In this document: positions 29,504-30,667 of the stretch, piece by piece
Position numbering within the stretch: position 1 is the stretch's first letter
Layout of the letters: every line of letters starts with the position of its first letter
Assembly (NCBI GenBank): GCA_014376935.1
Contig: JACMQO010000187.1
Location: forward strand, 1-34,069
From: Bdellovibrio sp.
Lineage (GTDB): Bacteria; Bdellovibrionota; Bdellovibrionia; Bdellovibrionales; Bdellovibrionaceae
Length of the DNA stretch: 34,069 nucleotides
Direction: 5' to 3'
Position numbers and translations under genes: made by a program
The notes under the pieces: generated by a model
What the model was told of the DNA's origin: nothing
Databases searched by the model: none
The model's input: the letters and a program-made list of their open reading frames with translations, nothing else

Positions 29504-30127
29504 TTATTTTTGAACAATACCCATGACGTCAGCTTCATGGACAACTTGCAATTCTTCAGAGTTGAACTCGATTTTAGTTCCGGCGTGCTCGGCAAATAAA
29601 ACGAAATCACCTTTTCTAACGTCTAAAGGACGCACGGCGCCTTTTTTATTTTTTCCACCGCCACCGACTGCTAAGACTTCGCCTTTTAAGTGACCCGCAG
29701 CATCGCTAACCATGTCTGGAATATACAATCCGCCAGCGGTCATCTTTGCCGCTTGCACAACGCGTAGAACTAAACGATCACCTAATGGCGTAATCGCTTT
29801 TGAGTAATCTAAATTTTTAATCACAGGCTTAGCCGTCGTTAAAACTGGAGCCGTCGCTTTTTTGACGGCGGGCTTTTCATTGACTTGAGCCTTCGTTTTT
29901 TTAGTCGAAGTTTTCGCAACTGCTTTTTTTGCAATCGCTTTAACTGGCTTTTTAACTGCGGTTTTTTTAACTGCTTTTGCAGGTGACTTCTTAGAAACCG
30001 CTTTGCTGGCTTTCTTCGCCGCAGGCTTAGTCGCTTTTTTTACTACTGCTTTTTTTGCTACTGGCTTTTTAGCCGCAACTTTTTTTACAGGTTTTTTTGC
30101 AGCGACTTTTTTTGCTTTACTTGCCAT
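29504..30127 (-). CDS. groES: GroES co-chaperonin fused to a histone-H1-like Lys/Ala-rich N-terminus
   Basis: This encodes 207 residues from ATG 30127 (GAGGA 12 bases upstream); an upstream ATG at 30148 adds seven but has no ribosome site. Residues 1-110 are built of Lys/Ala/Pro/Val repeats (AAKKPVKKVAAKKPVAKKA style), as in bacterial H1-like and AlgP proteins. Residues about 112-207 are a complete GroES fold: TPLGDRLVLRVV, mobile loop TAGGLYIPDM with a hydrophobic tripeptide that suits GroEL binding, GEVLAVGGG, PLDVRKGDFVLF and a VMGIVQK end. No groEL is adjacent, so this is probably an additional, specialised copy. The basic tail is likely to bind nucleic acid. It overlaps the upstream DUF507 gene. 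Confidence 0.87.
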   Translation of the reverse strand: MASKAKKVAAKKPVKKVAAKKPVAKKAVVKKATKPAAKKASKAVSKKSPAKAVKKTAVKKPVKAIAKKAVAKTSTKKTKAQVNEKPAVKKATAPVLTTAKPVIKNLDYSKAITPLGDRLVLRVVQAAKMTAGGLYIPDMVSDAAGHLKGEVLAVGGGGKNKKGAVRPLDVRKGDFVLFAEHAGTKIEFNSEELQVVHEADVMGIVQK

Positions 30128-30389
30128 GACGGTTTTTTTCCTCTTCATAATACTTTTTGTACATAATTTCCCACTCTGGAGAACCTTCCATAACGCCTCT
30201 TTTCAAAGACGCCACTTTTTCACGGGCTTTTTTATCAATATCAGAATCTTCTTTAACGTAATCGAAGATGGCTTTTTTGGTCGCCTTAAGGGCTAAGTCA
30301 TCATCAGAAAAGTCGGCGATATCATCGCCCCATACTTTGTCTGTCACTTTATGAGCCAAGTGACTTTGGCGGTCTTCAGAAATAATCAT
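30117..30389 (-). CDS. DUF507-family protein (second copy)
   Basis: This encodes 90 residues. It resembles the DUF507 helical protein family: DDDLALKATKKAIFDYVKEDSDIDKKAREKV fits the family's conserved middle, followed by EWEIMYKKYYEEE. Function unknown for the family. The ATG overlaps the stop of the first DUF507 gene (ATGA) and its own stop overlaps the start of the groES-like gene by about 11 bases. The three proteins are therefore made from one transcript with coupled translation. Confidence 0.75.
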   Translation of the reverse strand: MIISEDRQSHLAHKVTDKVWGDDIADFSDDDLALKATKKAIFDYVKEDSDIDKKAREKVASLKRGVMEGSPEWEIMYKKYYEEEKNRHGK

Positions 30390-30667
30390 AAAATTAGTTT
30401 TCTTTCTTTGGCCAATTTGGTTTTTAAAATCGGAAACATTTTATGGCGTTGAAATTCATCACCGTGTTGGCGTTGAAGTTCATCGATCATTCCCATGATT
30501 TCGCGGTCTAATAAATCTTCTTGTTTGTAATTATCAGTGATCGTATCAACGATGGTTTTTAAAACGACTTTTTCGTCGACTTTAAAAGTAATAAGGTTTT
30601 GCTTTTTCCATTCATTTAAAATCTTTTCTGAAAGTCTTTGTATTTGACTTGTCGTGAGCTTCATCAT
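30386..30667 (-). CDS. DUF507-family protein (first copy)
   Basis: This encodes 93 residues beginning MMKLTTSQIQRLSEKILNEW (ATG at 30667; the second Met at 30664 is equally good). The family pattern is clear: sEKIL..W....LITFK-VDE...V...IVDTITDN, then LLDREIMGM and a C-terminal KLAKERKLIL. Small helical protein, function unknown. It opens the minus-strand operon, with a ribosome site (AGGAG) and a strong sigma-70 promoter immediately upstream. Confidence 0.82.
   Translation of the reverse strand: MMKLTTSQIQRLSEKILNEWKKQNLITFKVDEKVVLKTIVDTITDNYKQEDLLDREIMGMIDELQRQHGDEFQRHKMFPILKTKLAKERKLIL

Follow-up and report, generated by a model that had tools for sequence, protein, structure and literature searches.

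A conserved lysine-rich tail, probably translated, on the second GroES of the order Bdellovibrionales, and its possible role in an alternative GroEL lid

The Bdellovibrio sp. contig analysed here (34,069 nucleotides in all, referred to below as the window) contains a gene for a co-chaperonin in which a complete GroES domain is preceded by a long Lys/Ala-rich tract. This tract is called the tail throughout, in the sense of a leading arm, as it lies N-terminal to the GroES domain. Comparison with relatives indicates that the tailed protein, GroES2, is a conserved second GroES of the order, that its tail is almost certainly translated, and that the tail evolves under purifying selection. We propose, at about even chances, that GroES2 serves the cell's single GroEL as an alternative lid, with polycationic disordered arms that would dock the chaperonin on a polyanion. 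The relevant features of the window are as follows.

29504..30127, minus strand: groES2 coding sequence, 207 aa and stop (open reading frame and translation; Cpn10 match).
29816..30127, minus strand: N-terminal Lys/Ala-rich tail, residues 1-104 (composition; conserved in 104 loci; related tails under purifying selection).
29507..29815, minus strand: GroES/Cpn10 domain, residues 105-207 (Pfam E 1.2e-21; PDB sequence and fold matches).
29714..29746, minus strand: mobile loop KMTAGGLYIPD, the expected GroEL-binding site (tripeptide region conserved in 92/92 GroES2).
29621..29665, minus strand: basic roof hairpin GGGGKNKKGAVRPLD, charge +3 (+2 to +5 in 92/92 GroES2).
30139..30145, minus strand: AAGAGGA, the likely ribosome-binding site, its AGGA core 11 nt ahead of the ATG (in 96/100 loci the tail start has an SD-like site).
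30117..30389, minus strand: gene for the C-terminal half of DUF507, overlapping the groES2 start (Pfam PF04368 positions 95-181).
30386..30667, minus strand: gene for the N-terminal half of DUF507, overlapping the C-half gene (Pfam PF04368 positions 1-93).

The groES2 frame opens with an ATG at position 30127 on the minus strand. A Pfam search with the 207-aa product returned Cpn10 (PF00166) only, with an E value of 1.2e-21 and a match to profile positions 2-93 of 93, and all matches in a PDB sequence search were Cpn10/GroES-type chains. An AlphaFold model of full-length GroES2, built from three sequences, was of low confidence (pLDDT 43) and contained no predicted structure in the tail; a model of the domain only was of modest confidence (pLDDT 60), its best matches were GroES/Cpn10 chains (E 3e-6), and the best 34 fold matches were all of GroES/Cpn10 type. 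A complete domain, the mobile-loop tripeptide and a GroES-like fold were thus all found; a further usual trait of GroES, being encoded with groEL, is not required for membership and is lacking in the tailed gene. The tail comprises 36 K, 25 A, 15 V and 8 P in 104 residues. The initial annotation had described a fusion of a co-chaperonin domain to a histone-H1-like tract, and the fusion is real: Cpn10 is complete and the architecture is the same in all assessable relatives (see below). The H1-like character holds for composition (Lys/Ala/Pro-rich, with high positive charge), and the likeness is compositional only.

The source genome encodes one GroEL, a 545-aa frame with a GGM-rich C-terminus. 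As the initial annotation had noted, groEL is absent from the window; the single copy lies on a different contig, C55, immediately downstream of a canonical groES, and the canonical pair that the annotation had proposed to look for was found there. The tailed protein is the second GroES of its genome and not the sole copy, and the possibility that all GroES copies of the lineage are tailed was ruled out, the canonical copies being short. We take genome G003 of our set to be that of HD100. The tailed gene corresponds to groES2 (bd3349) of B. bacteriovorus HD100, originally annotated as a 224-aa ORF with a repetitive N-terminal region (PMC3464611), and in the G003 frame (L039) an internal Met gives exactly the 117 aa quoted in that paper. 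In that 2012 paper the repetitive nature of the region ahead of the internal Met was the reason for moving the bd3349 start to this Met. The groES2 transcript was reported to be very low in attack phase, to be turned on 2-4 h into predation, and to be de-repressed in a bd0743 sigma-factor mutant (PMC3464611). Our literature search returned Bd3349 in one relevant paper only.

Relatives were gathered by whole-genome family searches; a similarity scan of contigs was swamped by low-complexity tail candidates. In 63/66 genomes of the family there was a second GroES whose open frame is long. Across the order, a Lys-rich tail was found in 104 of the 105 GroES2 loci read; L145, which runs off the end of its contig, was left out, so that the architecture recurs in 104/104 assessable loci. 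These come from seven families (f1, f2, f3, f5, f7, f9 and f10) among the ten of the order; the search for the fusion in other genomes, suggested by the initial annotation, was thus positive in many of them, and the idea of a tail confined to the source strain was ruled out. Judging from this recurrence, a chance origin of the architecture is excluded. Outside the order, second GroES copies of the phylum have short frames, and no Lys-rich tail was present in either of the two inspected; tail matches in other phyla (L036, L037) look compositional, the query being of low complexity. Composition of the tail is conserved while its sequence and length drift widely: tails range from about 41 to 208 residues, bearing out the predicted length variation of the tract, and their net charge in 100 loci was always strongly positive (17 to 99, order-wide median +34.5). 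Only canonical GroES was found in two nearly complete genomes of the family (G031 and G042) and in several small f9 genomes (1.2-2 Mb); GroES2 seems to have been lost in all of them.

Directly upstream of groES2, on the same strand and usually overlapping, DUF507 genes were found in about 59/92 loci. Genus g4 (Bdellovibrio proper) and most of f7 do not show this linkage; in most loci outside these groups the groES2 start overlaps the gene for the C-terminal half of DUF507.

Where translation begins decides whether the tail exists as protein. The published reading of bd3349 makes the tail an annotation artefact: translation would start after the tract and yield a normal GroES2 of 95-117 aa, leaving the Lys/Ala region unmade. 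The authors of PMC3464611 preferred such an internal start for HD100, and candidates for it do occur, with an ATG near the domain in 28/100 loci, some start codon there in 78/100, and a GTG just before the domain in the window. An ATG near the domain is, however, absent from 72/100 loci, and only 6/100 have one that is accompanied by an SD-like site (at least 4 nt), against 96/100 loci with an SD-like site before the tail start. The second residue of the tail is Ala, again in 96/100 loci. The window GTG is accompanied by a sole TAAG 3 nt away, a spacing too short for a normal SD site, and the internal Met of HD100 is absent from its sister genome G006 (L042), removed by a 10-residue deletion, the domains being 98-99% identical. 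In about 10,470 tail codons there was no in-frame stop, even though one substitution would turn any of the 3,990 Lys codons among them into a stop, and changes in tail length preserve the reading frame in loci across the order. Selection on the tail points the same way. In close pairs tail dN/dS was mostly 0.06-0.26, well below 1, with the reservation that gapped low-complexity alignments can bias dN downward; for this reason weight is carried by two ungapped pairs, in which tail dN/dS was 0.09 and 0.16 and substitutions were mainly at third positions. These values show that the tail is under purifying selection.

Taken together, the SD-like sites, the conserved start, the operon overlap, the dN/dS values and the absence, in most species, of any internal ATG argue against a start after the tract, the outcome named in the initial annotation as the one that would leave a normal GroES. 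We therefore regard the artefact as very improbable and translation from the upstream start, tail included, as almost certain on comparative grounds, and the 2012 reannotation of bd3349 is contradicted by the same comparisons. The selection, start-site and open-frame data likewise rule out that a low-complexity ORF just happens to precede a normal groES. Trypsin would cut the Lys-dense tail into tiny peptides. The same caution about Lys-dense tails was voiced for AlgP (PMC9239181). In the main text of a 2025 predation proteome, GroES1 was the sole GroES mentioned.

The GroES domain of GroES2 retains the hydrophobic tripeptide of the mobile loop, through which GroEL is bound, in 92/92 sequences aligned (GGLYIP in the window). 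The roof hairpin (E. coli positions 44-58) has a charge of +2 to +5 in the same 92/92, with a typical sequence GRGHxNKKGxxRPxD; in the canonical set, which includes E. coli GroES, its charge was 0 in 31 and -1 in 2. In a quick tree GroES2 formed one group with weak support (0.39; 0.85 for the canonical group), and a single origin of GroES2 appears likely.

Since the mobile loop is retained, GroES2 should be able to close GroEL, and such capping is quite probable. We propose that each subunit would carry a translated, probably disordered, polycationic N-terminal arm, that the heptamer would present seven arms around the lid (each with a median of about 34 net positive charges, order-wide) together with a lysine ring at the dome roof, and that the domain would cap GroEL through its normal mobile loop. 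The arms would attach to a polyanion, of which nucleoid DNA, or nucleic acid generally, is the most likely, and would hold GroEL-GroES2 chambers there, much as the tails of PhaF and AlgP serve as tethers. Binding of a polyanion by the arms is probable, though a little less firmly so than capping. AlgP KPAA-tail peptides bind DNA, and the tails of AlgP and PhaF organise polyphosphate or PHA granules (PMC9239181). Docking on a polyanion is favoured, with the nucleoid surface as the leading candidate, because such tails bind polyanions and because groES2 expression coincides with chromosome re-compaction; the nucleoid as the in vivo target nevertheless falls somewhat short of an even chance. Re-compaction of Bdellovibrio chromosomes precedes the closure of the septum, and in attack phase the chromosome keeps out fluorescent proteins, even small ones (PMC11318664). 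Such a nucleoid would exclude GroEL, so that at most the nucleoid surface could be occupied. The timing would be late in predation, near re-compaction; the attack-phase or dormancy role suggested in the initial annotation fits the published transcript profile less well than late maturation does. In its widest form, in which a polycation-armed GroES stations GroEL chambers on the nucleoid during chromosome condensation throughout the order, as a chromatin-tethered chaperonin, the idea is tentative and rather unlikely to be right. The absence of the gene from two nearly complete genomes of the family counts against the proposal, and a search of the literature on nucleoid-associated GroEL1 yielded nothing directly usable.

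RNA, ribosomes and polyphosphate are serious rivals to the nucleoid as targets of the arms. With such targets, GroEL would be brought close to nascent chains or granules at the time of the late surge in protein synthesis. Polycations bind any polyanion; AlgP, with its KPAA tail, associates with polyphosphate granules (PMC9239181), and groES2 is expressed at a time of intense protein synthesis for septation (PMC3464611). No paper linking Bdellovibrio polyphosphate granules to GroES was found in the literature search, and we consider these targets in place of the nucleoid unlikely. The tail might instead need no specific partner and act as a bristle, electrostatic or entropic, with effects on solubility, on the kinetics of lid exchange or on the choice of GroEL clients. 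The wide drift of tail sequence and length at conserved composition is what a bristle would show, and the basic roof hairpin suggests that the chamber itself is modified; but a simple bristle needs less Lys than the consistently high charge of these tails implies, and the tail has been kept through the whole order, which makes this explanation improbable. Least probable of the three, to the point of being hard to credit, is that GroES2 caps a partner other than GroEL, as Chlamydomonas Cpn11/20/23 does on ClpP (PDB 7ekq), or acts together with the DUF507 proteins transcribed with it. Chains of 7ekq are among both the sequence and the fold matches of GroES2, and the gene is linked to DUF507 and not to groEL; against this stand the GroEL-type tripeptide in every sequence aligned and best matches that are GroEL co-chaperonins.

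Parts of the arrangement put forward here, an alternative lid with docking arms, have counterparts in known systems. HD100 GroES2 is also a second GroES away from groEL with a repetitive N-terminal region, but in PMC3464611 the tail is dropped, whereas here it is conserved, selected, and preceded by an SD-like site order-wide. With canonical GroES/Cpn10 (E. coli, T. thermophilus, M. tuberculosis) the window protein shares the full Cpn10 domain, the mobile-loop hydrophobic tripeptide and the fold, but it has about 104 extra N-terminal residues, a basic rather than neutral or acidic roof hairpin, and no groEL partner gene. Helicobacter pylori GroES (HspA) likewise bears a lineage-specific extension, domain B, modelled from SAXS as seven protrusions on the ring (PMC5116745); that extension is, however, C-terminal, 28 residues long, His/Cys-rich and nickel-binding, and unrelated to the Lys/Ala tail. 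Pseudomonas AlgP and PhaF combine a partner- or granule-associated domain with a long disordered Lys/Ala/Pro DNA-binding tail, and PhaF oligomerises (PMC9239181), but their tails are C-terminal, the partner domain is another and no chaperonin is involved; homology of the tails cannot be shown. Chlamydia Hc2 has H1-like Lys-rich repeats whose size varies between strains (165-237 aa; PMC2848022) but is a stand-alone DNA-binding protein without a GroES domain.

The groES2 gene, its tail (seen, then discarded) and co-chaperonins with other extensions are thus already known; the tailed GroES as a conserved protein appears to be new, no description of an H1-like-tailed GroES of this kind having been found in the literature searched. 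GroEL-GroES is usually regarded as a freely diffusing cytosolic machine, and a conserved lid with cationic arms suggests that a bacterial chaperonin can be sent to a cell site via its co-chaperonin. The published gene model is corrected by our reading, and work on groES2 with the 117-aa version would miss the unusual part of the protein. The question is directly testable in HD100, a genetically tractable predator.

Several minor observations were made. In Aquifex, DUF507 is a protein of 183 aa that has internal twofold symmetry (PMC10439177); at 30117-30667 (minus strand) of the window it is split into two overlapping half-length genes leading into groES2, an arrangement that recurs in the DUF507-linked loci. 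The tail DNA contains runs of A, eight of them seven long and one six long (window 29863-30113, minus strand), which may favour slippage and frameshifts; the frame is nonetheless kept in all relatives. Families f9 and f10 (L117, about 3.6-4.4 kb, and L109, L114, L138 and L140) have tails with a near-perfect KKKATKKKV-type repeat, up to about 200 residues long and about 40-55% Lys. When the window tract was compared with the rest of its own genome, no protein matched at E<=0.001, and one other K/A-rich protein was found at E 0.04. A 185-aa protein of the same genome (L132, 1231-1788, minus strand, contig C81 of G000) has a similar Lys/Ala start (MAKKKKAAPKAAKK...) and a long Asp/Glu-rich end, and is a basic/acidic two-block protein.
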